The translations under genes and the position numbers were made by a program. 64,000 nt of DNA from an uncultured Aquimarina sp. (GTDB lineage Bacteria; Bacteroidota; Bacteroidia; Flavobacteriales; Flavobacteriaceae), in contig CANMLW010000007.1 in the NCBI GenBank assembly GCA_947498705.1, positions 1-64,000 of the forward strand. The letters are read 5' to 3'. Positions within the stretch are counted from its first letter, which is position 1. Each line of letters begins with the position of its first letter. Under the pieces are notes generated by a model that was not told the DNA's origin, ran no database searches, and saw only the letters and a program-made list of their open reading frames with translations. Positions 1 to 19,388 of this stretch are shown in pieces.

Positions 1-3000
1 ACACCCCCATCTTCGGCAGTATCAGGGATACCATTGGTACCCACACTGCCATTGGCCATACCATCACCATCGGTATCCAAGGTCGCATTACCTGTCTCTA
101 CAATATCATATAAGCCATCATTATCACTGTCTAAATCTAAATGGTTTGAGATACCATCACCATCGAGATCACAATTTAAATCACTCGTTGGAATTACAAC
201 CAAAGCATCTACAAAAACCCATGTATCAATACTCGAACCTAAAGACCCTAAATAGAAAGGATATGGCCCTGGAGTAGCTACACCAACTGAAGAAGGTATG
301 AATGTTACTGTGATTAACTCCCATGTACCGGGTGTACCTCCTGAAGTATCAAAATTAGTAATATTAAGAACTGTTGTTTCAAATTCTGCAGGACTTGAAA
401 AAGGTAGCGTTGATGAACTATCTAAATCTAGTTTAAAACCTATATTAACTAATGGATCAGCAGCAGGTACTGACGATGGCGCAACATAAGCAAAAGAAGG
501 TATAAAAATTTGATCAGGTGTATATTCTGTATAATAAAATTGTAGGGTTATTTCTTCATTAATATCATCTATTTGAAGCGTATTAAACATTCCTTCATCA
601 TTCGCTGGAGTTCCACCAAAATTACTTCTGAATCCCATAAATGAACCTCCTACTGGAGAAGGGTCAAACCCAGGCATACTAGCTATAGCTATATCTGTAC
701 CGTTAAAGTTAGCTAATGTAGTAGCAGAAATATCAGGTGTAGAAGCCTGCCCCCAAGGAGAAGGAACACTATTTACTTGTCCAGTAGTATAAGGTGTACC
801 TGGATTATTAACATCTACATAGTTATCATTAAAATCTCCATTAGCAATATAACTAATACTTGTACCCCCTCCTAATGATGGACACTCAACACTATCTAAA
901 ATACCATCATTATCATCATCTAAATCTATCGCATCTCCTATTCCATCGTTATCGGCATCATCAAAAATTAAGTCACAGGCATCTGAAATACCATCTCCAT
1001 CTCCATCAGGTCCTCCGACCTGTTGATAATCATCTGTGGTATCTATATCGGCGTCTGCAGGATCTGGATATGTTGCTGCCGTAACCAAACCATTGGCATC
1101 TACAATAGTCGTAGGGTCTACCGGATCTGTACCATACACTCCAGTATCTCCACCATCTGCAGTACTACTATTATAGGCTTCATTAGCATCACTACATCCA
1201 TCGGCATCACTATCTAAGTTAAGGTAATCAAAACTACCATCACTACCTGTATCTGTGGGTGTTAACCCTGCAGGTGATACCGGAGAAGGAATACCATTGG
1301 TAACTGTATTATCTGCATTGTTATCATCATCATCATGACGACCATCGTCATTGGTATCTGTTCCTCCTGCTTCTACTACATCATAAATACCATCATTATC
1401 ACTATCCAAATCCAAGAAGTCAGCAACACCATCGCTATCGGTATCTACACATACATTTTCTAGTAAAGTAAACCTAAATCCTTCTCCACTAGCTCCTCCA
1501 ACGGCAGAAATTGTAAATGAGGTTGCTCCTACCGGAAATACTACATTCCATTGTAATAAATCATTATCAATTGTTCCTGTTTGCGTAAAGGAACCTCCGT
1601 TACTAATACTAGCTCCATCTGTTTGATCGGTTTGATTGATGGGATCATTAATAACAGCATCTCCTGTTCCTCCTACCCAACTTACGGTATAGGTAGAAAA
1701 TCGGGCTCCAAAATCGGGCCCTGGTGGTTCTGGTAATAACGCATCGGCATCTACATATCCATATAATGCTAATTGTAAATCTGTTGCTGCTCCACCAGAA
1801 CTAATCGAAAAATTCGCCGCATTTAAGTCCCACATCCCAGCAGCAACTCTGTTATAATAAAAATACAATTCGTTATTGGTGGATAAACCATATTGTTCTA
1901 ATAGGCCATTAGTAAAGCTATGAGTTATCGTCCAACTACCTGTACCACCTGACGGTAAGCTTAACGTACCCGATTCATTACCATCTAACAGTCCATCATT
2001 TACAACCGCAAAAGTTGCTGGTTGTAGTGTTCCGTTACATTCGACAGAATCTAATATTCCATCATTATCGTTATCCAAATCCACACTATTTCCTACACCA
2101 TCTCCATCAACATCATCAAAAGTAGTATCACAAGCATCTACAATTCCGTCTCCATCGCTATCAGGTCCTCCTACCTGTTGATAATCATCGGCACCACTAA
2201 TATCTGTATCTACCGGATCGGTATAAGGTGCTGTACTTACTGTACCATTAGGGAATACAGTTGCCGGATCGGTACCATATACTCCTGTATCTCCTCCGTC
2301 GGCTGTACTACTGTTATAAGCTTCATTAGCATCACTACAACCATCATTATCACTATCCAGGTTTAGGTAATCAGGAGTTCCTGTTGTGGTTTCTGTTGGT
2401 GTTATTCCTGCTGGTGATACTGGAGATGGAATACCATTGGTTCCTGTATTATCAAAATTATTATCATTGTCATCATGTCTTCCATCGTTATTTATATCTG
2501 CTCCTCCTGACTCTACTACATCATAAATACCGTCATTATCAGAATCTATATCTAAATGATTTGGTATAGCATCATTATCCACATCGCACACCAACCAAAT
2601 ACCAAAAGCTACTGCTTCTCTACCTCCTTGATCTACCACTACATCTATTACTGTAGCATTTTTTGAATAATGAATAGTATTTCCTCCTGCACTGTTGGTT
2701 ACCGTTACTGTATTGGTTCCTACTCCTGTAAACGTACCTCCTGTACCTATAGTTTCTAATACCTGCCAAGGTTCCCCATCTGCAGTAAACGAGATAGATT
2801 CTGACCCCAGAGCGGTTTCTTCTGCATCTAATGCCAAAAGATCAATAGGGAAAGGAACTCCCCCTTTGGTTGCTGTAAATGTTACTCTAAAAGAACCATC
2901 TACACCGTCATTGGCCGCTATCGGATAGAATGCATCTGCAGTACCCGGTGTATTATACATCTGATGCAGTTGTGCTAAGAAATAAGTATTTAAATCATTA

Positions 3001-6000
3001 GGTACAAAAACATTACCATTAATACTGTTAGAAAACGTTGCTGTAATACTTAACCCATCTGAGAAGACAAAGGTTTGTGAATCTCCGTCATGAATCCCAT
3101 CTACAAAATCAGGGCCATCCCAGTTAAAAATATAGATTTGATCCTGAAAAGCACCTGAGCCAGAATCAGGATTAGCAATTGCTGCCTGATCGCATCGCTC
3201 TTCAACAGTATCCAAGATACCATCATTATCATCATCGAGATCAGCAGGATCTAATACCATATCATTATCGGTATCTGTCACTAATCCAGCTGGCCCTACG
3301 GGGTCAATAATTTGACTATCTACAACAGTATCATCACCAACCACTCCATCGGTAAGCACAAAGGTGGTTGTAGGCACATTAATAGAATTTATTAAGTCTG
3401 TACCTGTGGTTGCTGTAAAATTTTGAAAAATTTCGGTAATTCCCCCTGGATTAGTAGGCCCAAATTTTCTAAAAGTTTCTATTACAGAAATCCCGTGCCA
3501 ATAGAACTTTATAGTAGCCGATTCTCCTGGATTACCACATGTAAGTGTATAATCGATTAATCCTACAGGATACTCATATAAATCATCTTGAGATGCCAAA
3601 TCGGTTTCTAATAAGGCCGATATTGTTATAATCTGATTACAATCTCCTGTTACTTCTAAAGTGACATAGTCTCCACTACCTGTTGCATCGGGTATCGAAG
3701 CCACATTACTTTGTTGAGAATCTGGTATCCCATCATCGTTACCATCTCCTCCATTAGGTCCTGCATCTTCTACTGCTTCATCCACCCCATCACCGTCATC
3801 ACAAGCAGTAAACGTGACGTTATCTGTTACGGCAGCCACGGCTCCTGTATTATATGCTGCTGCAGTTACCAAACCATTAGCATCTACAATAGTTGTTGGA
3901 TCTACAGGGTCAGTACCATAAACCCCTGTATCACCTCCATCGGCATTGGCATCATTATATGCTTCATTAGCATCACTACAGGTATCTGCATCACTATCCA
4001 GGTTTAAATAATCTGGAGTTCCTGGTGTTGTTTGCGTAGGGGTTAACCCTGCTCCTGCCGAAGTTGGAATTCCGTTACTCCCAGTATTATCTGCATTATT
4101 ATCATCGTCATCTGCCCTACCATCATCGTTGCTATCGGTACCTCCTGCTTCTACAACATCATAGATACCATCGTTATCACTATCTAAGTCTAAGCAATTA
4201 GAAATACCATCGTTATCATCATCGTCTCCATCTACAAGTAACGTAACTGAGGATTGAGGAAAGAAATTCCATAACATTGCAACAGCAGAACCAGTATCGC
4301 GACTATCAAAAACATATAACGCTACGGTATATGGAGATGTATCAAAAGTAAACTCAGCTTGATGTCCATTAGCCGATCCCGTCATATTTAGTAGTACATC
4401 AGAAGATGTATTATCTACTCCTGTCAACAAATTAAAATTCCCTATCAAATTAAGGTTATTTGAGCCGTCTTCATCATTCACTATAAAACTTCCTACATCA
4501 TCGGCTACCGCATCATTAACACTAACAATAGCACCTCCTGGTTGCGCATTCAAAGGATCTGTATCAATGGTCCAGGTACCGGGCTCTCCCCAGGCATACG
4601 AATCCCTAACATCTGTATTATTTGCTGGAGCGGTTAAACTATTAATATCATTAATGACAAGACTAGGTATACTAAAAGCTGTTGGTGAATTTGTTGAAGT
4701 CCATATCAATTCTACTATTTCTCCATCTCCCAGACTATCCTGATTACCAATAAGACCTGTTGTGGTATTAAAAGCCACAGGGGTTCCTGCACTTACCGTA
4801 TTTGCTCCCTGATATATGTCTATTGCATATGTTGCGGCTCCATCGGTTATTCGTAGCCCTGGAGAGCCATTAGGTATAGTTCCTCCTCCAGATATAAAAG
4901 CAGAAGCTGGAATTGTTGTTACTGTATTGAATACTATTGTGATAGGATCAGAACACCCTTCTGCTGTATCCAAAATACCATCGTTATCATCATCTTGATC
5001 TGTTGCATCGGGGACTCCATCACTATCTGTATCAATTGGTGGATTGCATAGAGCATCGATACCATCTGTTACTGCGGCTACAGCACCAGTGTTATATGCC
5101 GCAGCGGTTACCAGACCATTGGCATCTACAATAGTTGATGGATCTGCCGGATCAGTACCATAGACCCCCGTATCACCACCATCGGCATTATCATTATTAT
5201 AGGCTTCATTAGCATCACTACAAGCATCTGCATCACTATCCAGATTTAGATAATCTGGGGTTCCTGATGTTGTTTGCGTAGCGGTTAACCCTGCTCCTGC
5301 CGAAGTAGGAATACCATTGCTAGTTGTATTATCTGCATTATTATCATTATCATCTGCACGTCCTTCTTGTCCTATCGTTGCGCTGGCTGTGCCTCCTGCT
5401 TCTACAACATCATAAATACCATCATTATCACTGTCTAAATCTAAATAATCAGGAATTCCATCTCCATCTGTATCCAAACAAGTATCTATAGTTAGATTGG
5501 TTAATTGCACATCATCTACTCCATCATTCGGGTTACCCCCATCTTTATTACTCATATCTATAATAATCTCTAACAATCCATTATTTGGAATGGTGGTAGG
5601 TAAATATAAGTCCCAACTATCAGAGACAGTACCTGTTTCTGAGTAAGGAAGAATACTTAAACTTCCTGATGCACCATTACTATAATTAATAGGTTGCGTA
5701 CCCGATATTGTACCCTCTTGTGTTTGGAAAGTAGCATACGTAACCCCTCCATAATTTACAGTTACTAGTACATAATCAGTACCTCCAGATGGAAATGCAT
5801 CTCTGGCAAATAGGGTTCCTACCGATAGAGTGTTTCCAAGTCCTAGTGGATTTACTCCTGTCAAACTCTGACTTATAGTTTGTATAGAATTATCTGTAGA
5901 ATAATATCCTCCAGCATGAGAAAATACAGTGGTACCATTACACTCTACCGTATCTAAAATTCCGTCATTATCATCATCGAGATCTACCGCATCATTTTCG

Positions 6001-9000
6001 AGGTCACCATCGGCATCTGAAGTTGCCGGACCTATTGGATCTATAATCTGGCTATCGATTACGGTATTATCTCCTACCGCTCCATCGGTTAATTCGTAGG
6101 TAGTTTTAGGAACATCTATCGTATTAATAGTTTCTATTTCAGAAGAAGCTGTAAATCCTTGAAAAACGCTGGTAACGTTTCCTGGGATTTCTGCTCCGTA
6201 CTTTCTAAAAAAGTCTATCCCAGCAATACCATGCCAATAAAATGTGATTTTTGCCGAGTCTCCCGGATTAATACACTGCAATGTAAAATCTATTAAACCT
6301 ACGGGGTATTCATATACCTCATCTTGTGATGCTAAATCCGACTCTAATAAAGCCGTCATTGAAGAAATTTGGGCACAATTTCCTGTTACTTCTAAGGTTA
6401 CATATGTTCCGTTACCTGAAGCATCAAGAATAGAGCCTACATTATTTTGCAATGAATCTGGAATACCATCATTGTTTCCATCTCCTCCATTGGGTCCAGC
6501 ATCTTCAACGGCAGCATCAATACCATCACCATCATCGCAAGAGGATGTCACTCCATTATCGGTTACAGCAGCCACAACCCCTGTATCATAGGCAGCCAGA
6601 GCAACCGTACCATCTGCATTAACAGTACCATCTGCTACAGTTAAAGGTTCTACAGCTGTATTATTAGGGTTGTATACTCCGCCATCACCCCCGTCGGCCA
6701 GTGTACTATCATACGCTTCATTGGCATCACTACAACCATCGGCATCGGCATCGGTAGATTGAAAATCAGGATTTCCTGAAACATCTGTATTTGCAATTGT
6801 ATAATTGATCGTTCCTGAATCAACAGGACTTTCTGCACCATCAAACAATCCATTAGCTCCTGATCCTGTATCTTGTCCATCGACTACCCCATTGGTACTA
6901 GGTAATCCATGTCCTGCTTCGATAGCATCATAAATTCCGTCATTATCACTATCGAGATCGAAGAAATCTGGCACACTATCTCCATCGGTATCGAAACCAG
7001 GTTCTATAGTCCCATTATTATTTCCTATTCCCGATCCTGTAGCTACAGAATCATCATCATCTAAATATGCAAATACTCCATCACCATCCAAATCTGCATA
7101 CGGATCTGAAGGAGATTCATCTATATTTGTAATACCGTCTCCATCAACATCTATATCCAAAGGATCCAGAATAAAATCATCATCATCATCTATAGACGAT
7201 GGTGCTAATGGACATGCAAATCCATCATTACTGGTTGTTTGCACAGTACTATTTAACAGTTGCCCCGAAGGGGTTCCTGTTGTATAATTATTGATCAGAT
7301 ATAATCCTCCATCATTAAAGGATACATATAAACGATCTTCGGCATCAGTAAAAGCAGCTCCATATCCTACCGTTGTAGAAGTTGGAACTCCTAATCCTGG
7401 TACCAGTTCTATTTCACTAGTACTTAAATGTACTATATATAAATTATCACTATCATCAACACCATATAACTTGTCATTAATAAATACAACATCGTTTACT
7501 TTTGCAGAAGGCGGTGCCCCACCTCCCAGTGCTGTATACGTTACGGGCACTAATGGAGGCGCTCCCCCAACAGTGCGCGTTGATAAGTTTTCTATTTTAT
7601 GGTACTCATCGCCGGTATTAATCCATAAGTTATCATTATCATCTACATCACCCGAGATTCCTCCAGAACCAAAACCGGTGATTTCTCCCAGATCTTCTAT
7701 TGCTCCGTCGGCTCCTATTCTAATCAGGTGTTTATTGATAGGACTGGATCCTCCACCCTTTCCTATGGCATAGGCATAATTATCAATTCTATTATATCCA
7801 GCTGCATTATATAATTCTGTAGTTGCAATCGGAGCTGAGTATTCTCCCGATATGGGGTCATAGGTTTTTAATTCTCCTGCTATGATTTGGTAAAAAACAC
7901 TTTCACAAGTAAAAGGTGTTAACGCACTTACAGGTCCACAAGCACTCGCATCTCCACTATCTGTAACTGCTGCTGTTGTATTTTGCGGGCTTCCTGTAAC
8001 CGTCGGCACTCCATCTTCATTTACTACATCTCCCAAACTACTATCACCATCTAGATCTCCTGCAAGAAATGACCCTGCGCCTTCTATCGCATCGGCACAT
8101 CCATCTGCATCTGCATCTGTTGATTGAAAGTCTGGTGTATCTGGAACTGCAGTATTATCGGTATTGGTAATAGTATAGGTAACTGTAGCAGTATTGGTAT
8201 CATTATTTTCTATTGCATCAAAAAGGCCGTTAGTTCCTGATCCTGTATCTTGTCCAGTAATTCTACCATTGGTATGTGCCTGACCGTGTCCCGCTTCTAC
8301 CACATCATAAATACCATCGTTATCACTATCCAGATCAAAGAAATCTGCAACCCCGTCACCATCAGTATCAAAAGCTGTCTCTACCAAACCGTCTATATTG
8401 CCAATCACAGCCGATCCATCATTATCGTCTAAATAGGCATAAATATCATCGGCATCGCCATCGGCAAAAGGATCAGATGGGGATTCGTCTAAATTGGTTA
8501 TTCCATCTCCGTCTAAATCCAGATCTACATTATCCAAACTATTATCTTCATCCTGATCTACTGCCGATTCTGCTGTTGCACAAGAGAATCCATCATTTCT
8601 TTGTGTATTTACAGTAAAACCAATATGTGTTGCCGTTGGCGAATTGGTTGTATAGTCTTCTATACTATATAATCCTCCAGAATTATTAGAGACATACAAT
8701 CTGTCTTGACTATCGGTATACACTGCTCCATAATTTACCACTCCCGTAGTTGGCAGGTCTCCTGTAATGGTTACAATTTGTCTATCTAAAGAAGGTAAAA
8801 TATTCCAGATATAAAGATTGGTTCCATCAACACCATAAAATGCATCATTAATAAATACAATATCGAGCGCATCCATTGCACCTGGGTTATTTGCCCAACC
8901 ATTTACAAGTGTAGTGGTAATGGTTCCTGATGGATTGGATGGTAAGGTAGATAGATTGTCTATTCTACGTAATCTTCTGGCATTACGTAAATATAAAGCG

Positions 9001-9425
9001 TCATTATCATCTACATCTCCTGCTATATAGTTAAGCGAAACATTGTCTAGAACTCCTAAATCATCAAAATCACCATTACTATCGATACGTATTAAATGCC
9101 CTGCTAAAGATTGCGGATCACCATTGGTATCGGTTTGCTCTACAATCGCATACATATAATCATCTGCTATATTATAGCCTCCTGCATTATATATTTGCAA
9201 CGTACTTAATGCTGTACCATACGTACCATCTGTGGCGTTATATTCTCTTAACTCACCATTTATAGCTTGATAAAACGTACTTGGACAATTAAACGGTACT
9301 GTTGCCTGACCATAATTTTTTTGTAACCCAAAAATTAAAAATAAGAGCCATATCATCACATAACTCTTTATTGTTGCTAAATTATTGGGTATTTTCGGAA
9401 ACGAAAGTTTAGTAAAAATTTTCAT
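1..9425 (-). CDS. Giant secreted TSP3-repeat surface protein, 3' end outside window
   Basis: One minus-strand frame opens at an ATG at 9425 and runs off the left edge, giving at least 3,141 codons. I read the frame over long stretches at both ends and in the middle and met no stop. A hydrophobic segment around residues 23-35 followed by GQA suggests a signal peptide. Residues about 40-285 and 500-742 are two related propeller-like domains, each opening with a Cys and FYQ and containing a DDYMYAI- or DNYAYAI-like strand; they recall DUF6923-type domains. The rest is a chain of acidic motifs such as DLDSDNDGIYD and DTDGDGVPD, typical of calcium-binding thrombospondin type 3 repeats, interspersed with beta-rich inserts of about 150-250 residues. 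A role as a cell-surface or secreted adhesin exported by T9SS is inferred; the C-terminal sorting domain would lie outside the window. Confidence 0.88.
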   Translation of the reverse strand, partial: MKIFTKLSFPKIPNNLATIKSYVMIWLLFLIFGLQKNYGQATVPFNCPSTFYQAINGELREYNATDGTYGTALSTLQIYNAGGYNIADDYMYAIVEQTDTNGDPQSLAGHLIRIDSNGDFDDLGVLDNVSLNYIAGDVDDNDALYLRNARRLRRIDNLSTLPSNPSGTITTTLVNGWANNPGAMDALDIVFINDAFYGVDGTNLYIWNILPSLDRQIVTITGDLPTTGVVNYGAVYTDSQDRLYVSNNSGGLYSIEDYTTNSPTATHIGFTVNTQRNDGFSCATAESAVDQDEDNSLDNVDLDLDGDGITNLDESPSDPFADGDADDIYAYLDDNDGSAVIGNIDGLVETAFDTDGDGVADFFDLDSDNDGIYDVVEAGHGQAHTNGRITGQDTGSGTNGLFDAIENNDTNTATVTYTITNTDNTAVPDTPDFQSTDADADGCADAIEGAGSFLAGDLDGDSSLGDVVNEDGVPTVTGSPQNTTAAVTDSGDASACGPVSALTPFTCESVFYQIIAGELKTYDPISGEYSAPIATTELYNAAGYNRIDNYAYAIGKGGGSSPINKHLIRIGADGAIEDLGEITGFGSGGISGDVDDNDNLWINTGDEYHKIENLSTRTVGGAPPLVPVTYTALGGGAPPSAKVNDVVFINDKLYGVDDSDNLYIVHLSTSEIELVPGLGVPTSTTVGYGAAFTDAEDRLYVSFNDGGLYLINNYTTGTPSGQLLNSTVQTTSNDGFACPLAPSSIDDDDDFILDPLDIDVDGDGITNIDESPSDPYADLDGDGVFAYLDDDDSVATGSGIGNNNGTIEPGFDTDGDSVPDFFDLDSDNDGIYDAIEAGHGLPSTNGVVDGQDTGSGANGLFDGAESPVDSGTINYTIANTDVSGNPDFQSTDADADGCSDANEAYDSTLADGGDGGVYNPNNTAVEPLTVADGTVNADGTVALAAYDTGVVAAVTDNGVTSSCDDGDGIDAAVEDAGPNGGDGNNDGIPDSLQNNVGSILDASGNGTYVTLEVTGNCAQISSMTALLESDLASQDEVYEYPVGLIDFTLQCINPGDSAKITFYWHGIAGIDFFRKYGAEIPGNVTSVFQGFTASSEIETINTIDVPKTTYELTDGAVGDNTVIDSQIIDPIGPATSDADGDLENDAVDLDDDNDGILDTVECNGTTVFSHAGGYYSTDNSIQTISQSLTGVNPLGLGNTLSVGTLFARDAFPSGGTDYVLVTVNYGGVTYATFQTQEGTISGTQPINYSNGASGSLSILPYSETGTVSDSWDLYLPTTIPNNGLLEIIIDMSNKDGGNPNDGVDDVQLTNLTIDTCLDTDGDGIPDYLDLDSDNDGIYDVVEAGGTASATIGQEGRADDNDNNADNTTSNGIPTSAGAGLTATQTTSGTPDYLNLDSDADACSDANEAYNNDNADGGDTGVYGTDPADPSTIVDANGLVTAAAYNTGAVAAVTDGIDALCNPPIDTDSDGVPDATDQDDDNDGILDTAEGCSDPITIVFNTVTTIPASAFISGGGTIPNGSPGLRITDGAATYAIDIYQGANTVSAGTPVAFNTTTGLIGNQDSLGDGEIVELIWTSTNSPTAFSIPSLVINDINSLTAPANNTDVRDSYAWGEPGTWTIDTDPLNAQPGGAIVSVNDAVADDVGSFIVNDEDGSNNLNLIGNFNLLTGVDNTSSDVLLNMTGSANGHQAEFTFDTSPYTVALYVFDSRDTGSAVAMLWNFFPQSSVTLLVDGDDDDNDGISNCLDLDSDNDGIYDVVEAGGTDSNDDGRADDDDNNADNTGSNGIPTSAGAGLTPTQTTPGTPDYLNLDSDADTCSDANEAYNDANADGGDTGVYGTDPVDPTTIVDANGLVTAAAYNTGAVAAVTDNVTFTACDDGDGVDEAVEDAGPNGGDGNDDGIPDSQQSNVASIPDATGSGDYVTLEVTGDCNQIITISALLETDLASQDDLYEYPVGLIDYTLTCGNPGESATIKFYWHGISVIETFRKFGPTNPGGITEIFQNFTATTGTDLINSINVPTTTFVLTDGVVGDDTVVDSQIIDPVGPAGLVTDTDNDMVLDPADLDDDNDGILDTVEERCDQAAIANPDSGSGAFQDQIYIFNWDGPDFVDGIHDGDSQTFVFSDGLSITATFSNSINGNVFVPNDLNTYFLAQLHQMYNTPGTADAFYPIAANDGVDGSFRVTFTATKGGVPFPIDLLALDAEETALGSESISFTADGEPWQVLETIGTGGTFTGVGTNTVTVTNSAGGNTIHYSKNATVIDVVVDQGGREAVAFGIWLVCDVDNDAIPNHLDIDSDNDGIYDVVESGGADINNDGRHDDNDNNFDNTGTNGIPSPVSPAGITPTETTTGTPDYLNLDSDNDGCSDANEAYNSSTADGGDTGVYGTDPATVFPNGTVSTAPYTDPVDTDISGADDYQQVGGPDSDGDGIVDACDTTFDDVDGDGVGNSVDLDNDNDGILDSVECNGTLQPATFAVVNDGLLDGNESGTLSLPSGGTGSWTITHSFTNGLLEQYGLSTNNELYFYYNRVAAGMWDLNAANFSISSGGAATDLQLALYGYVDADALLPEPPGPDFGARFSTYTVSWVGGTGDAVINDPINQTDQTDGASISNGGSFTQTGTIDNDLLQWNVVFPVGATSFTISAVGGASGEGFRFTLLENVCVDTDSDGVADFLDLDSDNDGIYDVVEAGGTDTNDDGRHDDDDNNADNTVTNGIPSPVSPAGLTPTDTGSDGSFDYLNLDSDADGCSDANEAYNSSTADGGDTGVYGTDPVDPTTIVDANGLVTAATYPDPADADIDTTDDYQQVGGPDGDGDGISDACDLIFDDADNDGIGDAIDLDDDNDGILDSVECPSLGGGTSISYIANGDFNDNYVDVNNPGTPYTTGQVNSVPSPWGQASTPDISATTLANFNGTDIAIASMPGFDPSPVGGSFMGFRSNFGGTPANDEGMFNTLQIDDINEEITLQFYYTEYTPDQIFIPSFAYVAPSSVPAADPLVNIGFKLDLDSSSTLPFSSPAEFETTVLNITNFDTSGGTPGTWELITVTFIPSSVGVATPGPYPFYLGSLGSSIDTWVFVDALVVIPTSDLNCDLDGDGISNHLDLDSDNDGLYDIVETGNATLDTDGDGMANGSVGTNGIPDTAEDGG

Positions 9426-11789: not shown

Positions 11790-12461
11790 TTATATAAAAC
11801 CTCTTTTACGAGCTTCTTCGAGCAGCATTTGGTCGTCTGCTTTGGCAATAGAAAACATCTCTTTGATTTGATTTTTTCTTTTCTCGATCGCACTTAGGGA
11901 TAAGCTTACATAATTGGGTAAGTTTTTGGTTTTTACCCCACGAGAAAGATGGTATAATATTTTTAGGTTTTTCTCATCTAGTGAGAATTTATTGGTCATC
12001 ATTTTTCTAAAATGATCGTTTACCGTAGCACTATAATACGCTTTACCTTTTACGATATTATTAAAAGCCAGTAATAGCTCTGCAGAGGTAAGATCACTCT
12101 TTATCAAGAAACCAGAAGGGTTTATATTTTTAAGAATGTTATGGATTCTGTGATCCTCTCTATGCATGGTTAGGATAATAATCTTGGATTTGGGTAAGAG
12201 TTCTTTGGCATGTTTTGCCAAATCCTCTCCAGAAGTTATGGTACCATCTGATGATGGTGGTAGTTTAATGTCTATAAAAAGCATATCATAAGGAACCGTC
12301 TCTGAAGATTTTACAATCGTCTCGTAAGCATCGTCGCAATTGGATGCAATATCGATTTTTATTTGATACTCTTTTTGATTTTCTCCTAACAGGGTATTCT
12401 TATAACCTTCTATAATCATCGGGTGATCATCGATCATAAGAACTTTTAGCTTTTTCTTCAT
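11790..12461 (-). CDS. Response regulator with receiver and HTH-type output (NarL/LuxR-like)
   Basis: This 223-residue protein has a receiver domain at residues about 5-130 with the acidic pair D11/D12, phosphoacceptor D64 in the strand LFIDIKLP, T98 and K121, all the expected catalytic positions. The C-terminal region (about 150-215) contains a helical segment, SLSAIEKRKNQIKEMF, in the place of a LuxR-type helix-turn-helix; it is a divergent version. It lies 97 bp downstream of the histidine kinase gene on the same strand and is its likely partner. A HisKA_3-type kinase followed by this class of regulator is a standard pairing. Target genes are unknown. Confidence 0.85.
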   Translation of the reverse strand: MKKKLKVLMIDDHPMIIEGYKNTLLGENQKEYQIKIDIASNCDDAYETIVKSSETVPYDMLFIDIKLPPSSDGTITSGEDLAKHAKELLPKSKIIILTMHREDHRIHNILKNINPSGFLIKSDLTSAELLLAFNNIVKGKAYYSATVNDHFRKMMTNKFSLDEKNLKILYHLSRGVKTKNLPNYVSLSLSAIEKRKNQIKEMFSIAKADDQMLLEEARKRGFI

Positions 12462-12558
12462 CTTAAAAATTATTGTTTAGTTCTACAGCATTTACATGTT
12501 GGTCATTACTCATAACAACCTATGTAACTACTTTTAGCAATTCAATTTGCGTTATATA

Positions 12559-14607
12559 TTAGACTGGCACACTTACTGACACAGTGGTACCAGCACCTTG
12601 GTTACTTAAAAACTGAACTACCCCACTCATCTGACTAACTCTTGATGTAATGTTCTTTAAACCGATTCCTTTTTTGACCTTGGTACTTTTAAAACCGATT
12701 CCATCATCTAAAATAGTAAGATTTATGTTACTATCCTCATAATCGAAATTAATTTTTATGTTTTCTGCCTGTGCATGCTTAAAAATATTCTGCATCGACT
12801 CTTGTAAAATCCTAAAAAAGTTTACTTTTTTATTGTCTGGGATTTCTTCCCAATCGATTTTCTCGTCGTTAGAAAACTCATAGTTAAGTTTATGGATCCC
12901 ACACAAGTCTTTGATCAGGGTTTCTACGGCATCCATATAGGCCACATCAGAGGGTAAGGTGTCTGATCCCAGATCGTGCGAGATGAGACGTATTTCTTTT
13001 TCTATAGCTTTTAGTTCTTCTATATATTTGTTTCTAGAAGGGGTAAACTCGTCATTGGCCCGTTGGTTGATCCCATCCAGACTCAATCGTACCCCAAACA
13101 GGCGCCCCAGTACCCCATCGTGTAACTCTTCTGACATACGTTGCTGCTCTAGCTGTCGTCCTTCTTCTAGTTTGATTTGCTGGTTAAGCAGCAGGCGGTA
13201 GATCTCTTCATTAGACTCTTGCTGGGTTTGCGCAAATTGTAGTTCTTTATTACTTTGCTGCTGTCTAAAGATAATATACCCTAATAAAAACATAGCCGTT
13301 AACCCCAAAATCGCAATGATGAGGATTTGGTTTTCCTTGCTTACTTGTATACTCTGTTCTTTAAATTCATCTGTCTCATATTTGATACGTGCAAATTTAT
13401 CTCGAAACAGTCGCTCTTCTTTGATCAAACTGTCATTGAGTGTTATATACTTATTGGCATATCCCAACCCTGTTTTATAATCAGACACCTTTGCTAATAA
13501 TTGATAAGCTTGCAATAGATCCTCGTTATCATGAATTTCTAAAGCTAAATCGCGAGATTGTTGTGCATAACCAATAGCTATACTATCTTTACCTATCGAT
13601 TGATAATATTCCCCCAAATGTAAGGCACTGGTGGCTAATCCATATTTATGTTGTATGCTATCTCGTATATGTAAAGCTTTATAAAACAAATTCGGGATAT
13701 TAGTCATATCCTTCGACAAAAAATTAACATAGGCTAGGTTATCTAACAATAATGCCCTTCTTCTAGGATCAATTTTTAAATATTCATTATGAGATAATGC
13801 TTTGTTAAAGTATTCCTTTGCCTTATCATATTTTTTTTGGGATTTATAGGTAGTACCAATATTATTATAGGAAATCACTTTCTGTTCTATTTCAATATCA
13901 GTTCCTTTAGCAATCTCAATTGCTTTCAAGTAATACCCAATTGCTTCCTCATACCGTTCTAAATGTTTACAAACAATTCCCAAATTAATATAGCATAAAC
14001 GTAAATAGTTATCATTTTTAACTATTTCAAATTTTTCTATAGCGGCAATCGTTTTGGATTCACTTTCACTATAATCTTTTATTTTACGAAGTATTTGAGC
14101 CAATGATAGTAAAACATCACCATGATCAAAGGCATAATCCTTTGGTTCATACTTTTTATTATCCAATGATAAATAAACCTTATCTGCATTATAAAAGTTT
14201 TTAATAGTTGAATCTAGCTCTGCCGTTGTTCTGTGGTAAGCACCTAAATAAAAATAGGATTTAGCAATATTAACAGAATCCTGAATAACGTTAGACAGCT
14301 TCAAAGCTTTCTCACTTAAGCTTTTATATTTATTATAATCTTTAACATTTAAATATTCATTAGAGATTTCGAGAAGTTTTTCAATCTTAAAAGAATTATT
14401 TACTAGAGTAGAATAAATCGTATAGGCCTTATCTAAATACTCTCTACGCTCCTCAATAGAAGTTGTTTTATCTTTACTTTTTTCTATATAAGATTCGATT
14501 AAATCAGATTTTAAAACATCCTCTTTTATCTTAACCTCATCGGTTGATTTATGACAACTAATCATTAAAAAACCAATAAAAAATAACTGTATAAAAAGAC
14601 GTTGCAT
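12559..14607 (-). CDS. TPR-containing sensor histidine kinase (HisKA_3 type), lipoprotein-like N-terminus
   Basis: A 682-residue sensor kinase. It starts with a signal peptide ending in a lipobox-like MISC (Cys18). Tetratricopeptide-like helical repeats fill about residues 50-400, including YEEAIGYYLKAIEIAK and YDKAKEYFNKAL. A membrane segment follows at about 428-447, then a coiled linker. The HisKA_3 dimerisation helix carries the phospho-accepting His in EELHDGVLG (H496), and the ATPase domain shows ESMQNIFKHA, DDGIGF and GIGLKNI boxes. The TPR part would be periplasmic and probably senses a ligand or protein. A Cys18 lipid anchor plus an internal membrane segment is an unusual pairing, so the N-terminus could instead be a cleaved signal peptide. 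Confidence 0.88.
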   Translation of the reverse strand: MQRLFIQLFFIGFLMISCHKSTDEVKIKEDVLKSDLIESYIEKSKDKTTSIEERREYLDKAYTIYSTLVNNSFKIEKLLEISNEYLNVKDYNKYKSLSEKALKLSNVIQDSVNIAKSYFYLGAYHRTTAELDSTIKNFYNADKVYLSLDNKKYEPKDYAFDHGDVLLSLAQILRKIKDYSESESKTIAAIEKFEIVKNDNYLRLCYINLGIVCKHLERYEEAIGYYLKAIEIAKGTDIEIEQKVISYNNIGTTYKSQKKYDKAKEYFNKALSHNEYLKIDPRRRALLLDNLAYVNFLSKDMTNIPNLFYKALHIRDSIQHKYGLATSALHLGEYYQSIGKDSIAIGYAQQSRDLALEIHDNEDLLQAYQLLAKVSDYKTGLGYANKYITLNDSLIKEERLFRDKFARIKYETDEFKEQSIQVSKENQILIIAILGLTAMFLLGYIIFRQQQSNKELQFAQTQQESNEEIYRLLLNQQIKLEEGRQLEQQRMSEELHDGVLGRLFGVRLSLDGINQRANDEFTPSRNKYIEELKAIEKEIRLISHDLGSDTLPSDVAYMDAVETLIKDLCGIHKLNYEFSNDEKIDWEEIPDNKKVNFFRILQESMQNIFKHAQAENIKINFDYEDSNINLTILDDGIGFKSTKVKKGIGLKNITSRVSQMSGVVQFLSNQGAGTTVSVSVPV

Positions 14608-14648
14608 TAAGAAAAATTTTACTCTAATTTAGATAATTAAGTAGCAAC

Positions 14649-14709
14649 AAAAAAGCAAAAACAAAAAAAGATCTTGTTTTATAAGATCTTTTTTTGTTTT
14701 TGCTTTTTT
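14649..14709 (-). terminator. Perfect 27-bp stem terminator
   Basis: Bases 14649-14675 are the exact reverse complement of 14683-14709, with a 7-nt loop (gttttat). The inner part of the stem is aaaaaaagatctt/aagatcttttttt, so T tracts are present in both directions. It lies just past the stop of the Asp-rich lipoprotein gene and 42 bp before the kinase start, so it should insulate the two genes. Confidence 0.85.
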
Positions 14710-14726
14710 ATAATGATTTTTATACA

Positions 14727-15020
14727 CTAGCTACCACCATTATTTCCATTATTTCCAGGATTTCCATTATTTCCAGGATTTCCAGGATAATTAGTTCCAT
14801 CATCATCTTCTCCACTATGTATATTCATACCATCATCATCTTCTCCTCCATGCGGAGAACCATCGTCATCTTCTCCTCCGTGTTTAGAACCATCATCGTC
14901 TTCTCCGCTGAAAATATCGGTATAATCGATTCCTACTTGATCTTCTGTTGCGTCTGCTTCACAAGCGATGAATAATGAGCTTAAAAATAGTATAGCGAAT
15001 ATAGTTCTTATAGTTTTCAT
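14727..15020 (-). CDS. Small Asp-rich lipoprotein with four GEDDDG repeats
   Basis: A 97-residue protein I do not recognise. Residues 1-20 form a signal peptide ending LFIAC, so Cys20 is the likely lipidation site. After a short linker come four copies of GEDDDG separated by short His/Ser/Gly linkers (residues about 39-75), then a tail of NPGNNGNPGNNGNNGG. The clustered Asp residues suggest metal (possibly calcium) binding; this is inference. The gene is monocistronic, bounded by the 27-bp stem terminator and preceded by about 420 bp of non-coding DNA. A frame on the opposite strand is only its shadow. Confidence 0.75.
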   Translation of the reverse strand: MKTIRTIFAILFLSSLFIACEADATEDQVGIDYTDIFSGEDDDGSKHGGEDDDGSPHGGEDDDGMNIHSGEDDDGTNYPGNPGNNGNPGNNGNNGGS

Positions 15021-15285
15021 AATCGTATTTTTTTAGTTTAGAATTTGTGTTACCTATTATAGATAACGTCTTAATTTGGTTTTACTTACTTTTTTTGTTT
15101 TTACTCGTATTTTCATCGGTTGCGCAATCGACTTTTAATAGTTACTTTTTGTACTGTTAGCGATCGTTTACTTTTTCTGTTTTTGTATCTCTAATTGTAC
15201 ACTACAAATGTAGGGGGATTATTCCCTCGCGCCCAATAAATTAGGGTGTTTATAGTGGTTTGGTGCCTGCCAGAAGTAGTTGTAC

Positions 15286-15297
15286 CCCGTATACGGG
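15286..15297. promoter_or_regulatory. 12-bp palindrome, possible operator
   Basis: The sequence cccgtatacggg is a perfect palindrome, and relatively GC-rich for this non-coding region. It sits about 265 bp upstream of the start of the Asp-rich lipoprotein gene, so an operator role is only a suggestion. Confidence 0.25.
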
Positions 15298-15379
15298 TAG
15301 TTGGCCATATTTTATGAAATGGGGGAAGTGTAAGAAATTACGGTATAATGATTTGGTAATACAATGGTACGTTTTTTTT

Positions 15380-15414
15380 TACAAAAAAACCGATAAATAG
15401 TTGCTATTTATCGG
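15380..15414 (-). terminator. Rho-independent terminator of the LytTR gene
   Basis: Read on the minus strand, an 11-bp perfect stem (ccgataaatag / ctatttatcgg, 3-nt loop) is followed by a run of seven T's. It lies 28 bp past the stop codon of the LytTR regulator gene. Confidence 0.85.
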
Positions 15415-15441
15415 TCGGTATATAATAGGTGTGAGGACATA

Positions 15442-16179
15442 TTATATATAGATTAAACTTTTCTTGGCGAGATTATCTTTTATTTCCTCGACATTATTCT
15501 TATACGATTTCGAAAACGGGATCATATCATCAGAGTTCTTGATGGCACATTTTGCCTTGCCAAAATGTATCCTCGAGACGTAGTCTATATTAATAATATA
15601 ACTATTATGTATCCTTACAAAATGCTTGGGTAATAATTCCTGAAAATGTTTTAGCGTTTTAAAAGCTTCTACCTTATTACCATCGCTCATCATAAAATCT
15701 GTCGTATTATTATCTGCCTTAAGATATAGGATCTCGTCTACATCTACAAAGCGATAATCGCCATAGGATTTAAAACACAAAGTGTTATCTCCCACATTAT
15801 CAAAGTCTTTCTCGAATCGCATCAAGGTTCTTTTGATCTGCGGTTTTCCAAAGGGTTTGAGCATATAATCCAAAATCCTGTTACGAATCCCCTCGATGGC
15901 ATATTCTGTAGTTTTGGTAATCACAATAAATTCTGGTAGTCGAGGCATGTATTTTGCCAACTCGACCATGAGCGAATATTTGGTTTGATTACCATGCATA
16001 CCCTGCACCTCGGGCTCTAAAAAAACAAGTCTTGGTCTTCTTTCTAAAATAAGATCTAACGCATCGTGCTCATTATCTGCGATTCCTGTACAGATATACT
16101 CGGTCTTTTCTTCGAGCGAAATCTGAATCAAATCAGAGATATTTTTGTCGTTATCTATAATTACGTATGGATATTTCAT
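15442..16179 (-). CDS. LytTR-family response regulator with Glu in place of the phosphoacceptor Asp
   Basis: A 245-residue protein with an N-terminal receiver-like domain (about 1-125) and a C-terminal LytTR DNA-binding domain (about 140-240), which shows the typical VDEILYLKADNNTT and HFVRIHNSYIIN segments. The receiver keeps acidic residues D9 and D11 and the DYMLKPF lysine motif, but the strand that normally carries the phosphoacceptor Asp reads VFLEPEVQG, placing E55 there. A Glu at this site can mimic phosphorylation, so the protein may act without a kinase. No LytS-type kinase gene lies beside it. The gene is monocistronic with its own terminator. Confidence 0.85.
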   Translation of the reverse strand: MKYPYVIIDNDKNISDLIQISLEEKTEYICTGIADNEHDALDLILERRPRLVFLEPEVQGMHGNQTKYSLMVELAKYMPRLPEFIVITKTTEYAIEGIRNRILDYMLKPFGKPQIKRTLMRFEKDFDNVGDNTLCFKSYGDYRFVDVDEILYLKADNNTTDFMMSDGNKVEAFKTLKHFQELLPKHFVRIHNSYIINIDYVSRIHFGKAKCAIKNSDDMIPFSKSYKNNVEEIKDNLAKKSLIYI

Positions 16180-16687
16180 GGGGTATCTATTACTATTAAA
16201 TTTATGATTTAGTGTGACGCATATTTATTCTATCTACAAGATAGGGTAAATCTCGTTTTTTTGGATACGCGAAAACCGTAATATTAGTATGGAACTACTT
16301 CATTAACAAAACCTTAGGATTTGCATTTCGTCTACAATTTTATGTATTTCGTCTATAAAAATTACCAAAAACACTTGCTACGTCATCTTTAACAGTCATC
16401 TTGATTTTAGTTAAAAAACTCCAAAATTGCAGATTTTGTCATAGAGAAACAGAAATAAATCCGTATGAAAAGTAGGATATCACGTGCTAATTTTACCCCA
16501 TATCTTACCCTCATTTACAATGTAGTATATCTGATATTTTTGACAGTATGTCTTATTCCAATATTTCATTACCTGTTTTATCCTTTTTAAAACGTATTCT
16601 ATACAGCAAATTAAAGAAGGCACGATCATGGTAAATGGAGCTATTTTTATGGTCTACTCGTTCTAATTTCATAGTATAATGATGACT

Positions 16688-16755
16688 TTTTGTTTTCTGT
16701 CTCCTCGAGCGCTTCGATAAACCTAGGACAGGCATTATCGAGATGTCATTTCGAA
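16688..16755. repeat. REP-like palindromic unit related to the 11-kb repeats
   Basis: The stretch contains gcgcttcgataaacctagga followed by caggcattatcgagatgtca. Its reverse complement reads tgtcctaggtttatcgaag, close to tgtcctaagtttgttgaag seen at 11020 and 11550. It therefore appears to be an inverted member of the same dispersed family. Confidence 0.5.
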
Positions 16756-16840
16756 AAATCACTACCATTGACGTATTTCATAGGTTTTATACGTTCTTAA
16801 ATTTACTTAAATCGTTTTTGATTTAACTCTTTCATTTTAT

Positions 16841-17044
16841 TTGCTCGCCCAAAGAAAACGAAACAAAAGAAAAGGCACTTTTTTCAAGGTATTTTTCAGT
16901 TTCACTGAAAACCAGATTTATTTTGCTAAAATCTTTCCAAGGCTTCAAGATTTTTTAACGCAAAATAAATCTTATACTGGTGAAAAAAGATTTCAAAGCT
17001 CCGCTTTGGAACGTCAGTTTAAACACTGGGTAAAATTTTATTGA
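16841..17044. repeat. Probable dispersed intergenic repeat (not a gene)
   Basis: The block starts gctcgcccaaagaaaacgaa and includes aaagctccgctttggaacgt. It contains partial inverted repeats: ttattttgctaaaatctttc answers the later ttttttaacgcaaaataaat on either side of aaggcttcaag. From memory this matches a type of repeat often found between genes in flavobacteria. A 67-residue frame runs through it, but its composition (basic and aromatic, no domain) argues against coding. Confidence 0.4.
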
Positions 17045-17157
17045 AAGTCTCAATTCGACGGATTTTTAAAGTCAAATCCGTACATCAAATTCACACTAGT
17101 ATATACCTTTTACTTTTATTAAAATCAGATATTCTTAGGGTATATGCACCATTTCTG

Positions 17158-17165
17158 TATCTTTG
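17158..17165 (+). promoter_or_regulatory. -7 box (TAtcTTTG) of the Sir2 gene
   Basis: TATCTTTG matches the Bacteroidota sigma-A -7 consensus TAnnTTTG. It lies 27 bp before the ATG at 17193, leaving a short leader. It also overlaps an in-frame TTG at 17163, which rules that codon out as the start. Confidence 0.6.
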
Positions 17166-17192
17166 AAAAGCTATATAAAAACACATCTACCT

Positions 17193-17870
17193 ATGAAAAA
17201 TATTGTGGTACTTACAGGAGCAGGAATGAGTGCAGAAAGTGGGATCAATACCTTTAGAGATGCAGATGGGCTGTGGGAAGGTCATGATATTATGGAGGTA
17301 GCCTCGCCTATCGGTTGGCAAAACAATCAGGAACTGGTCCTTGACTTTTACAACAAAAGACGCCAGCAATTACACACGGTCGTTCCTAATCAGGCACATA
17401 TCGATCTGGTTGCCCTCGAACAGCAATACAAGGTGACCATCATTACTCAAAATGTAGATGACCTGCATGAACGTGCCGGCAGCAACCATGTGGTGCATCT
17501 GCACGGTGAACTCTTAAAAGTACGTAGCCAACATGATGAGCATGAGGTTCTAGAGTGGACCTACGACCTGCATACAGGAGACTACTGCAAATACAACACC
17601 CAATTAAGACCTCATATCGTTTGGTTTGGAGAAGATGTCCCCATGATGGAAACCGCCATCACTTATACAGAGCAAGCCGATATTCTTTTGATCATAGGCA
17701 CTTCTATGCAGGTATATCCGGCTGCAGGACTAGTGCAATACACGCAACCCAATATCCCTATATACTTTATAGATCCTAATCCAGCCATTAACCCCTCTAA
17801 TAATCTTACTATACTGGCAGAAAAAGCTACCTCGGGTGTTGCCAAAGTGGTAAAGGAGTTGCTTGAGTAG
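17193..17870 (+). CDS. cobB: NAD-dependent protein deacylase, Sir2 family (CobB/SIRT5-like)
   Basis: A 225-residue sirtuin, which removes acyl groups from protein lysines using NAD. It shows the NAD-binding GAGMSAESGINTFRD segment, QNVDDLHERAG, the catalytic His in VVHLHGEL, and IGTSMQVYPAAGL. The FYNKRRQQ segment supplies the Tyr and Arg that mark the desuccinylase/demalonylase class (SIRT5, CobB). The four zinc-binding cysteines of classic sirtuins are missing: only one Cys is left, in GDYCKYNTQLRPHIVWFGE. This seems usual for Bacteroidota homologues. The ATG at 17193 is chosen because the upstream TTG overlaps the promoter. The haem-binding gene downstream converges on it. Confidence 0.9.
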   Translation: MKNIVVLTGAGMSAESGINTFRDADGLWEGHDIMEVASPIGWQNNQELVLDFYNKRRQQLHTVVPNQAHIDLVALEQQYKVTIITQNVDDLHERAGSNHVVHLHGELLKVRSQHDEHEVLEWTYDLHTGDYCKYNTQLRPHIVWFGEDVPMMETAITYTEQADILLIIGTSMQVYPAAGLVQYTQPNIPIYFIDPNPAINPSNNLTILAEKATSGVAKVVKELLE

Positions 17871-17900
17871 TGAGTATGAAGTACAAAGTTTAAGCCCCCT

Positions 17901-18422
17901 CTATAATACCGTCTTGCTACTATCGATAACAGTAGCAGGAATAGTATCACTAGTCTTTGCAGGAATGCTATCTATAGGGTTGATGATTTTATCTCTTACC
18001 TCTTTTGCCCAGGTGGTTAGTATATCGGCATCTTGATTAGATAGTTCATCATGAACCAAGGTATAGGGTTTTAATGGCATTGCCTTTTTTTCTATCTCTT
18101 CTATCAACTCTTCTAATTTATGTTCCTTTTGATCGGTAGTATACGAATCCCAATCAGAAACATTAAAATGTTCTTTTCCTTCGTTGATATGATAAGCCAT
18201 CCAGTGCGAAACAGGACTTACCTCCATATACCATGGATATCGGGTACTATTGCTATGGCAATCATAACAATTATTTTGCAAAATAGTCCTTACATTATCT
18301 GGTACAACTGTAGCAGTTTCAAAAGAGGTGATAGTTTCGTAACTGGCTTCATTTTTATTGGGTCTTAAAAACTGAGAGACAACCAATGCCAATAGCAAGA
18401 GTAAAAAAAATCGTTTTATCAT
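17901..18422 (-). CDS. Haem-binding domain protein (c-type cytochrome-like, periplasmic)
   Basis: A 173-residue protein with an N-terminal hydrophobic signal/anchor (residues 4-19). It has a single covalent haem-attachment motif CYDCH at about residues 52-56, followed by SNSTRYPWYMEVSPVSHWMA, the signature of the haem-binding domain family found in Bacteroidota. The distal Met ligand is probably in the MPLKPYTLVH segment near residue 114. It is probably an electron carrier or a haem-sensing periplasmic protein; the exact role is unknown. It converges with the Sir2 gene (30 bp between stops) and is divergent from the HEAT-like gene. Confidence 0.85.
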   Translation of the reverse strand: MIKRFFLLLLLALVVSQFLRPNKNEASYETITSFETATVVPDNVRTILQNNCYDCHSNSTRYPWYMEVSPVSHWMAYHINEGKEHFNVSDWDSYTTDQKEHKLEELIEEIEKKAMPLKPYTLVHDELSNQDADILTTWAKEVRDKIINPIDSIPAKTSDTIPATVIDSSKTVL

Positions 18423-18574
18423 TTTATTTGTTTTACAGCATTTCTATACTCTCTTTCCCTCCTATTGTATCCGTAATTTGAAATTGACCTATCAAACTGG
18501 TTACATCAGTTCTATAACGAAACAGTCCCTAACATACACTAGCACAATGAAATACTAATTTTTAGATATAACGG

Positions 18575-18607
18575 TTTTGCAGTACACATTATTATTAGGT
18601 AACTTTG
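18575..18607 (+). promoter_or_regulatory. Promoter of the HEAT-like gene (TTTTG, 20 bp, TAacTTTG)
   Basis: A TTTTG at about 18575-18579 and TAACTTTG at 18600-18607 fit the Bacteroidota -33/-7 arrangement. The ATG at 18633 is 25 bp past the -7 box, which supports that start over the TTG at 18609. Confidence 0.6.
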
Positions 18608-18632
18608 ATTGCAATATGATACGTTTATCCAA

Positions 18633-19190
18633 ATGGCACTTCTAGACGAAATTGTAGATAGCATTGATCACTCTCGCGAAAAAAGAGCACGTCTAGCTAA
18701 TATGCTGGTTGCAAACCCTACATTAATTCCCGAGTTATTGGGTATTTGCGCTATGGTAGATGACGATGCCTCTTGCAGAGCCGCCTGGGGACTCGAATAT
18801 ATGTGCAAAACCAAAATAGATGAAATATTACCGTATTTGGATCAACTACTAACCATTATCCCTACTGTATATAAACACCCGGCAGTGAGACCAATGGCAA
18901 AGATCATTGAACAATTAATGATCCAGTATTATCAAAAAAAAGAGGCTAGAACGCAACAGGCACTAACAAAAATGCACAGATCTCAGATTACAGAAATCTG
19001 TTTTGACTGGATGATCACCGATCAAAAAGTAGCTGTACAAGCCTATACCATGACCTCTTTGTACTTATTAGGAACAGAATTTGACTGGGTGCACGCAGCA
19101 CTTAAAACGATACTTGAAAACAATTATAGCAAAGGAAGCGCTGCTTATAAAGCACGATCCCGAATGGTGCTTAAGAAGCTTAGGGGGTAG
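18633..19190 (+). CDS. HEAT-repeat-like protein of unknown function next to purB
   Basis: A 185-residue, mostly helical soluble protein without a signal peptide. Helical pairs such as SCRAAWGLEYMCK, HPAVRPMAKIIEQLMI and KVAVQAYTMTSLYLLG are spaced like HEAT or armadillo repeats. I know no specific function. It precedes purB on the same strand, a neighbourhood I recall from other flavobacteria, but purB has its own -7 box and a G-rich tandem repeat separates the two. The start at ATG 18633 follows the promoter; a TTG eight codons upstream is almost on top of the -7 box. Confidence 0.75.
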   Translation: MALLDEIVDSIDHSREKRARLANMLVANPTLIPELLGICAMVDDDASCRAAWGLEYMCKTKIDEILPYLDQLLTIIPTVYKHPAVRPMAKIIEQLMIQYYQKKEARTQQALTKMHRSQITEICFDWMITDQKVAVQAYTMTSLYLLGTEFDWVHAALKTILENNYSKGSAAYKARSRMVLKKLRG

Positions 19191-19274: not shown

Positions 19275-19360
19275 CTGGGAGTATTTGACTTTGGACATCT
19301 GACTTCCAACCTAAAATAAAAACCAAAACCATAAAATTCGTAATTCATAATTAATTGGAT

Positions 19361-19368: not shown

Positions 19369-19388
19369 CAGCTTCAAAAACAAAAACT

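Follow-up and report, generated by a model that had tools for sequence, protein, structure and literature searches.

A giant open reading frame of an uncultured Aquimarina carries dissimilar inserts in cysteine-edged sockets along an Asp-rich scaffold

A 64,000-nucleotide stretch of DNA from an uncultured Aquimarina sp. (bases 1 to 64,000 of contig CANMLW010000007.1, here C7, in a genome of 88 contigs) carries at its left end a giant open reading frame (ORF) whose Asp-rich repeats alternate with segments that do not resemble one another. What kind of protein is built in this manner, and how could its segments come to differ? By examining the whole stretch, hereafter the window, together with related genes, we arrived at the view that the window probably holds 3,141 codons from the start of a gene for a giant surface adhesin; this protein would be exported by the type IX secretion system (T9SS) by means of a type B sorting domain, and its varied Cys-edged domains would be carried on an Asp-rich rod and exchanged via scaffold recombination.

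Results

Five dissimilar inserts occupy cysteine-edged sockets

The giant ORF comprises 3141 codons on the minus strand (window 3–9425) and is open at the left window edge. Because window base 1 is also base 1 of contig C7, the gene has no C-terminus in the window, and 9425 bp is a minimum for its length. The encoded protein is acidic (14.3% Asp and a net charge of −489, with amino acids (aa) 1–40 excluded), and the frame contains 38 D.[DN].DG motifs. An initial annotation had described seven calcium-type units in this frame, and all seven were recovered as D[LI]DSDNDG[IL]YD units on the minus strand. The conserved stretch that was said to follow every unit was found only in part: CSDANEAY follows five of the seven units, ADGGDTG four, and DANGLV three, with unit 1 continuing differently and unit 7 cut by the contig end. 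The D-x-D-x-D-G repeats are predicted from their sequence to bind calcium.

The same annotation viewed the protein as modular with variable inserts, and we indeed found five mutually dissimilar inserts between the repeated Asp-rich units. Each is preceded by an opener of the DLDDDNDGILDxxE type, is followed by the closer D[LI]DSDNDG[IL]YD, and has one cysteine per edge. The window protein has 30 cysteines in all, and every one of them fits into one of 15 positional pairs, which we assigned to two propellers, six scaffolds, two choice-of-anchor U domains, and five inserts. The domain order is signal peptide, propeller 1, Asp-rich segment, propeller 2, Asp-rich segment, choice-of-anchor U domain, and insert A, followed by scaffold, insert B, scaffold, choice-of-anchor U domain, insert C, scaffold, insert D, scaffold, insert E, and the start of a further scaffold. 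The corresponding features, all on the minus strand, are as follows.

3..9425, minus: giant ORF, 3141 aa, with its C-terminus beyond base 1 of C7
9306..9425, minus: N-terminal signal peptide, aa 1–40, hydrophobic core at about aa 21–40, assigned by eye
8580..9290, minus: beta-propeller 1 (DUF6923), edged by Cys47 and Cys282, profile match
7914..8564, minus: Asp-rich rod segment 1, holding unit 1 (8304–8336)
7191..7916, minus: beta-propeller 2 (DUF6923), edged by Cys507 and Cys738, from profile, AlphaFold2, and Foldseek
6471..7193, minus: Asp-rich rod segment 2, holding unit 2 (6927–6959)
6006..6488, minus: choice-of-anchor U domain 1 (NF041766, 32.1 bits, cut-off 32)
5484..5942, minus: insert A, Cys1162 to Cys1316 (the second Cys just outside, at 5478–5480), no family match
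5001..5483, minus: scaffold after insert A, with unit 3 (5409–5441) and the CSDANEAY / DGGDTGVYG / DANGLV stretch
4233..4958, minus: insert B, Cys1491 to Cys1744, no family match
3774..4232, minus: scaffold after insert B, with unit 4 (4158–4190)
3261..3773, minus: choice-of-anchor U domain 2 (NF041766, 34.7 bits, cut-off 32)
2595..3200, minus: insert C, Cys2078 to Cys2280, CshA_NR2 adhesin domain, PF18651 profile
2040..2594, minus: scaffold after insert C, with unit 5 (2520–2552)
1455..2039, minus: insert D, Cys2463 to Cys2659, no family match
885..1454, minus: scaffold after insert D, with unit 6 (1380–1412)
180..884, minus: insert E, Cys2848 to Cys3085, no family match
3..179, minus: start of the next scaffold, with unit 7 (105–137), cut by the contig end

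Two duplicated propellers had also been proposed. The DUF6923 profile (PF21959) matches two stretches of the frame (147.5 bits, cut-off 27), and the two propellers share 43% identity. An AlphaFold2 model of propeller 2, built from five aligned sequences, reached a predicted local distance difference test score (pLDDT) of 77.2. Among the 50 Foldseek matches listed for this model, most are WD40, Kelch, or other propellers, as recognized from the entry titles; with E values near 1e-4, template modeling (TM) scores of 0.41–0.52, and root mean square deviations of 5.9–12.8, the match is moderate. A phmmer search of propeller 1 against Protein Data Bank (PDB) chains returned a single match (E 0.81) that we treated as meaningless. 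The region of choice-of-anchor U domain 2 is paralogous within the gene at 69% DNA identity. Pfam DHQ_synthase matches on the U domain (E 0.0021 and 0.0082, under the cut-off) were judged to be chance, and NCBIfam BamM matches (E 0.013 and 0.0017, far under the cut-off) were rejected.

The cysteine edges are shared by sockets across the genus

We searched the giant frames of same-genus genomes for sockets by using patterns without any required cysteine. Note that these frames came from search matches and not from random choice, and that the survey is a sample and not a census. Of 63 regions found, five in genome G058 proved to be continued Asp-rich repeats and were dropped, leaving 58 sockets from 19 genomes. 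When a cysteine was looked for within the first 8 and the last 24 residues of each insert, both were present in 57 of the 58 sockets, compared to 1.7 on average and 7 at most with random placement of the same lengths (1000 trials). The same test was passed by 9 of 11 sockets in loci from other genera and by 18 of 19 in shorter genus loci (L048–L076) that overlap the surveyed genes. A further gene from the single-contig genome G020 (locus L084) has both cysteines in 9/9 sockets; it was counted apart under a looser pattern because the closer pattern misses DVDSDNDG sockets. A 390-bp tandem array (~97% identical) lies in the 3′ part of this 7306-codon socket gene (L084 1–6561).

Across the order, 40 of 148 sampled genomes matched a scaffold query, as did all 37 same-genus genomes; the source genome is included in both counts. 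Each pair of edge cysteines is predicted to form a disulfide.

Recognizable inserts belong to several families

Insert C matches CshA_NR2 (PF18651) with 88.1 bits (cut-off 24, E 1.2e-24; match on 2562–3218), a family whose fold is a beta-sandwich according to excerpts of PMC10952558. The initial annotation had called the inserts beta-rich, and insert C, although modeled with poor confidence (pLDDT 46), belongs to this beta-sandwich family. Binding of fibronectin or of matrix is only a predicted ligand role for it. Another CshA_NR2 insert is found on contig C17, so that one family occurs in different genes of one genome. Against PDB chains, phmmer with E values up to 1 gave no match for four inserts (A, C, D, and E); for insert B there were 18, the best being galectin-1 (E 0.08), on which we did not rely.

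The 58 inserts of the survey fall into 37 BLAST clusters (38 if the dropped G058 group is included), 29 of which are singletons. Pfam identified CshA_NR2 in four inserts, L-type lectin in three (best E 4.5e-44), and F5/8 type C in one, along with weak DUF642 and laminin-G matches, and NCBIfam identified choice-of-anchor L in nine. The named families are mostly what we take to be adhesin, lectin, or galactose-binding-like domains. Four of the choice-of-anchor-L inserts were inspected singly and all belong to cluster 0; eight of the nine inserts in this cluster occupy the same socket in related genes. In a giant protein of G058, the C-terminus (L093 2401–2790) weakly matches NCBIfam MtsD, a TSP3 cell–cell cohesion protein (16.9 bits, far under the cut-off).

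The repeated DNA is scaffold DNA

The initial annotation reported DNA repeats in the gene, and these are present as a 74-nt repeat family with 13 copies and as 300-nt pairs at 68% and 86% identity. Among the 12 intragenic alignments of at least 100 bp listed, identity ranges from 60 to 83%, and all 12 include only 0–3 insert bases, which identifies the repeated DNA as scaffold. The longest exact repeat measures 28 bp, against 13–18 bp in 20 codon-shuffled controls, and is therefore not a chance match.

The further suggestion that the repeats are similar enough for recombination and copy-number change is weakly supported by the window copy, with its 60–83% identities, and better supported by relatives. 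Recent intragenic duplications were found in G024 (627 bp at 98.9%, including a 521-bp exact repeat) and G010 (1699 bp at 98.1%; exact repeat of 1522 bp), and the numbers of HYR-like units in two related genes differ (see below).

We then compared flanks with inserts for pairs of sockets, leaving out the 2 of 58 sockets without a complete flank, as well as 37 of 1540 pairs whose alignment covered fewer than 70 columns. When right flanks were 70 to <90% identical, homologous inserts (BLASTP E up to 0.01) were present in 14 of 90 pairs, a count to be read with the caveat that socket pairs are not independent. The closest homologue of the window gene, on contig C165 of G024, is 71% identical in its N-terminal part. 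At socket 1 of these two genes the flanks are 54% and 62% identical and the inserts barely align (z 2.7). Against the socket 1 inserts of four other genes (G024 C83, G020, G001, and G032), that of the window gene does not align (z −1.2 to −1.8); choice-of-anchor L is present in 3/3 of these that were scanned, and the fourth falls in the same cluster. Judging from the sequences, sockets seem to hold their position in relatives while their contents differ. Identity between G024 C83 and G001 rises from ~45% to 97% along the gene, which suggests mosaicism, but we did not rely on this because G024 appears to be metagenome-derived.

Relatives indicate how the gene may end

Four anchor genes lie upstream of the giant gene in the window (block 11790..20732) and define a locus that can be followed in related genomes.

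11790–12461, minus: response regulator
12559–14607, minus: TPR histidine kinase
15442–16179, minus: LytTR regulator
19389–20732, plus: adenylosuccinate lyase

Homologues of all four lie upstream of a giant gene in G001 (97, 69, 84, and 93% identity), and those of the first three upstream of one in G020 (97, 71, and 85%). Both syntenic giant genes are intact from stop to stop, with 5151 codons in G020 and 4253 in G001. Each has one socket opener, and they carry HYR-like arrays of 37 and 21 units, respectively (L028 and L030); the window gene has five sockets and, in its sequenced part, no HYR-like unit. The type B sorting domain TIGR04131 (cut-off 35) matches the end of the G020 protein with 42.5 bits and that of the G001 protein with 35.9. 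A PorP/SprF gene (270.9 bits, cut-off 90.55) comes directly after the giant gene in G020; the downstream side of the G001 gene lies beyond its contig. Among eight closed giant ORFs, six match TIGR04131, four above the cut-off and the others with 32.4 and 27.8 bits.

When the C-terminal 515 aa of the G020 protein were compared with the window's genome, the best contig was C31 (E 2.5e-97; next 1.3e-29). This contig encodes an open-ended C-terminus of 406 aa with TIGR04131 (37.2 bits, cut-off 35). It also has genes for a PorP/SprF protein (285 bits) and for an OmpA protein of 654 aa, which is PorE-like (339.9 bits, under the cut-off of 600). Because it combines the best match to the G020 C-terminus with TIGR04131 and PorP/SprF, C31 is likely the other end of the window gene. 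Joining C7 to C31 was considered and not made, because another contig, C17, is an equal candidate for the link to C31.

The window's genome has more giant-gene fragments at contig edges, N-terminal on C17 and C5 and C-terminal on C9, C20, C22, and C31 (L009, L010, L012, L014, L040, and L042), which most likely represent several broken paralogues. PorP/SprF-like genes lie beside the fragments on C31, C9, C20, and C22; after the one on C31, and likewise on C9, comes a gene whose product of 654–655 aa has OmpA and PD40 propeller matches. On their 3′ side, 21 of the 30 giant ORFs surveyed (at least two units each) run off a contig end, eight are closed, and one is cut by the fetched segment; broken contigs are therefore common for such genes.

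Several neighboring features were recorded in passing. G001 (by Pfam) and G020 have a sulfatase gene between the giant gene and the regulators, and the window has none there; the G001 sulfatase (L046 1530–4634) carries a ConA-like lectin domain and a type A sorting tail, and the gene in G020 is similar. Short intergenic repeats occur upstream of the giant gene in a 2.4-kb region with few genes, with CTTCGACAGGCTCAGGGCAGG in tandem and TTCGACATGGTCTGTCCTAAGTTTGTTGAA twice (~10955–11045 and ~11540–11590). Farther along, the window encodes a 938-aa subtilase with GEVED, fn3, and CBM5/12 domains and a type A T9SS sorting tail (26591–29407, plus strand), and a cobalamin riboswitch (31696–32027, minus strand, 66.2 bits) lies just upstream of a TonB-dependent receptor gene (29663–31618, minus strand).

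Discussion

A model for domain display and exchange

We propose that calcium bound by the D-x-D-x-D-G repeats would stiffen the chain into a rod. A disulfide at each cysteine pair would staple the two ends of an insert, so that the domain is displayed sideways and could be swapped with the rod undisturbed. The inserts would bind glycans or polymers on surfaces, a type B C-terminal sorting domain would export the protein, and a PorP/SprF-like barrel would anchor it. Recombination between scaffolds could duplicate, lose, or exchange inserts; in this proposal, insert diversity arises because the conserved scaffolds, and not the inserts, are the repeated DNA.

The best-supported reading is that of a type B T9SS adhesin with a PorP/SprF-like anchor and several ligand-binding domains shown along its Asp-rich rod. 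The window protein would work like the split-domain RTX adhesins, yet it is none of them because it has no RTX nonapeptide (0 matches to GGxGxDx(L/I/F/V)x in the frame). Like AhLap of Aeromonas hydrophila, as portrayed in excerpts of PMC12077191, it would be a giant Gram-negative surface fiber with calcium-binding repeats, in which several different ligand-binding domains per protein bud from a scaffold domain with adjacent termini. Whereas the RTX adhesins in those excerpts use type I secretion and Ig-like split domains, the window protein has an Asp-rich scaffold resembling thrombospondin type 3 (TSP3) repeats, Cys-edged sockets, and a presumed T9SS type B export route. The main text of PMC12077191 has no occurrence of cystein, disulfide, Bacteroid, or type IX.

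The window scaffold resembles thrombospondin type 3 in its Asp-rich DxDxDG-type repeats and differs from it in having a 107-aa unit with its own cysteine pair and a TSP3_bac match below the cut-off. Eukaryotic thrombospondin type 3 repeats contain cysteines.

With CshA and CshB the protein shares the CshA_NR2 domain (insert C). Unlike those adhesins, which carry NR2 at their tips in excerpts of PMC10952558, the window protein has it as one of five differing inserts along an Asp-rich rod. The same excerpts propose domain shuffling and describe NR2-like domains in CHU_C-anchored proteins of Bacteroidetes, so that the shuffling of NR2-like adhesin domains is already in print; thrombospondin, disulfide, and cystein do not occur in the main text of PMC10952558. 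Our searches for this architecture in the open-licence PubMed Central literature brought up no description of the cysteine-bracketed socket rule. As regards export, the window gene would resemble SprB–SprF of Flavobacterium johnsoniae and other substrates with type B C-terminal domains in being a T9SS surface adhesin with a type B sorting domain and an adjoining PorP/SprF gene. Anchoring of type B substrates by PorP/SprF-like proteins is described for SprB–SprF and PG1035–PorP in parts of PMC9143113 and PMC12618676. RemA of F. johnsoniae is likewise a T9SS-exported surface adhesin with a lectin domain but has a type A sorting domain (PMC12618676, in part).

Alternative explanations

The type B sorting domain with PorP/SprF is also the arrangement of SprB–SprF (PMC9143113 and PMC12618676, in part), and the PorP/SprF gene directly after the syntenic G020 gene would suit a mobile gliding adhesin whose role is traction on a gliding track and whose inserts are spacers or incidental. 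We consider this rather unlikely, since the PorP-like genes of C31 and C9 each have an OmpA/PD40 gene after them, the one on C31 being PorE-like albeit below the cut-off, and PorP–PorE-like anchoring has been proposed for non-mobile substrates (excerpts of PMC9143113). In addition, some inserts belong to recognized lectin or adhesin families, and therefore not all can be mere spacers. Alternatively, the inserts might be one ancient domain that diverged very fast under selection until similarity was lost, with no exchange of domains. The many singleton clusters fit such divergence, as do the residual alignment of the socket 1 inserts with G024 C165 (z 2.7) and the fact that all 22 socket pairs with flanks at least 90% identical retain homologous inserts. 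However, the recognized contents span different Pfam and NCBIfam families, CshA_NR2 recurs in different genes of one genome (C7 and C17), and flanks remain alignable where inserts do not, which makes this explanation unlikely in our view.

That the protein serves as a structural or matrix protein, or as a decoy for phages or predators, with the sequence diversity of its inserts mattering above binding, would agree with its very acidic composition, the several paralogues in the genome, and the lack of a family for most inserts. We find this quite improbable given that adhesin and lectin families appear wherever inserts can be assigned. Finally, short-read assemblies collapse repeats, and 21 of the 30 giant ORFs, the window's included, are cut at the 3′ side by a contig end, so that the repeat structure could be an assembly artefact. 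This is highly improbable: the frame is open over 3,141 codons, the same sockets occur in the single-contig genomes G020 and G003, and the inserts of the window gene all differ, so that collapse would not create them.

Several results nevertheless weigh against the view that the window gene encodes an exported adhesin with exchangeable domains. The same 22 of 22 pairs imply that no very recent swap was caught, and the exact repeats of the window gene reach 28 bp at most, with no recent duplication visible in this copy. Neither Pfam nor NCBIfam gave a match to insert A, B, D, or E with E values up to 0.1, and across the genus at least 41 of the 58 inserts lie outside the four main families named. 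The AlphaFold2 model of the insert-C module, made without an alignment, was poor and went unused. The scaffold after insert A reaches only 16.1 bits with the bacterial TSP3 profile (PF18884), under the cut-off of 25. NR2-like domains are invariably upstream of a GEVED-like domain in excerpts of PMC10952558, and the sequenced 3141 aa of the window frame contain no GEVED match, unlike that pairing. Two of the eight closed giant ORFs end without a type B domain, one having a type A domain and one no match. No exact contig overlap joining C7 to a continuation, C31 included, was found; the start of C31 looks by eye like a Calx-beta tail and C17 ends in a Calx-beta domain, so that C31 could equally continue C17.

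Implications

Beyond the window gene, read as a type B T9SS adhesin, Bacteroidota in general might possess an exchange-socket system in which an Asp-rich rod bears disulfide-stapled sockets for unrelated lectin or adhesin domains, and in which scaffold recombination swaps, duplicates, and deletes these domains to give species-specific arrays at the same locus. We advance this broader idea tentatively. If it is true, the opener–Cys–insert–Cys–closer rule would find candidate flavobacterial recognition domains directly from genomes, those at least 41 inserts among them. There would also be a reason why such genes break draft assemblies, as in 21 of 30 frames here, and stay under-described, and the split-domain principle of RTX adhesins would have its equivalent among surface proteins exported by the T9SS.

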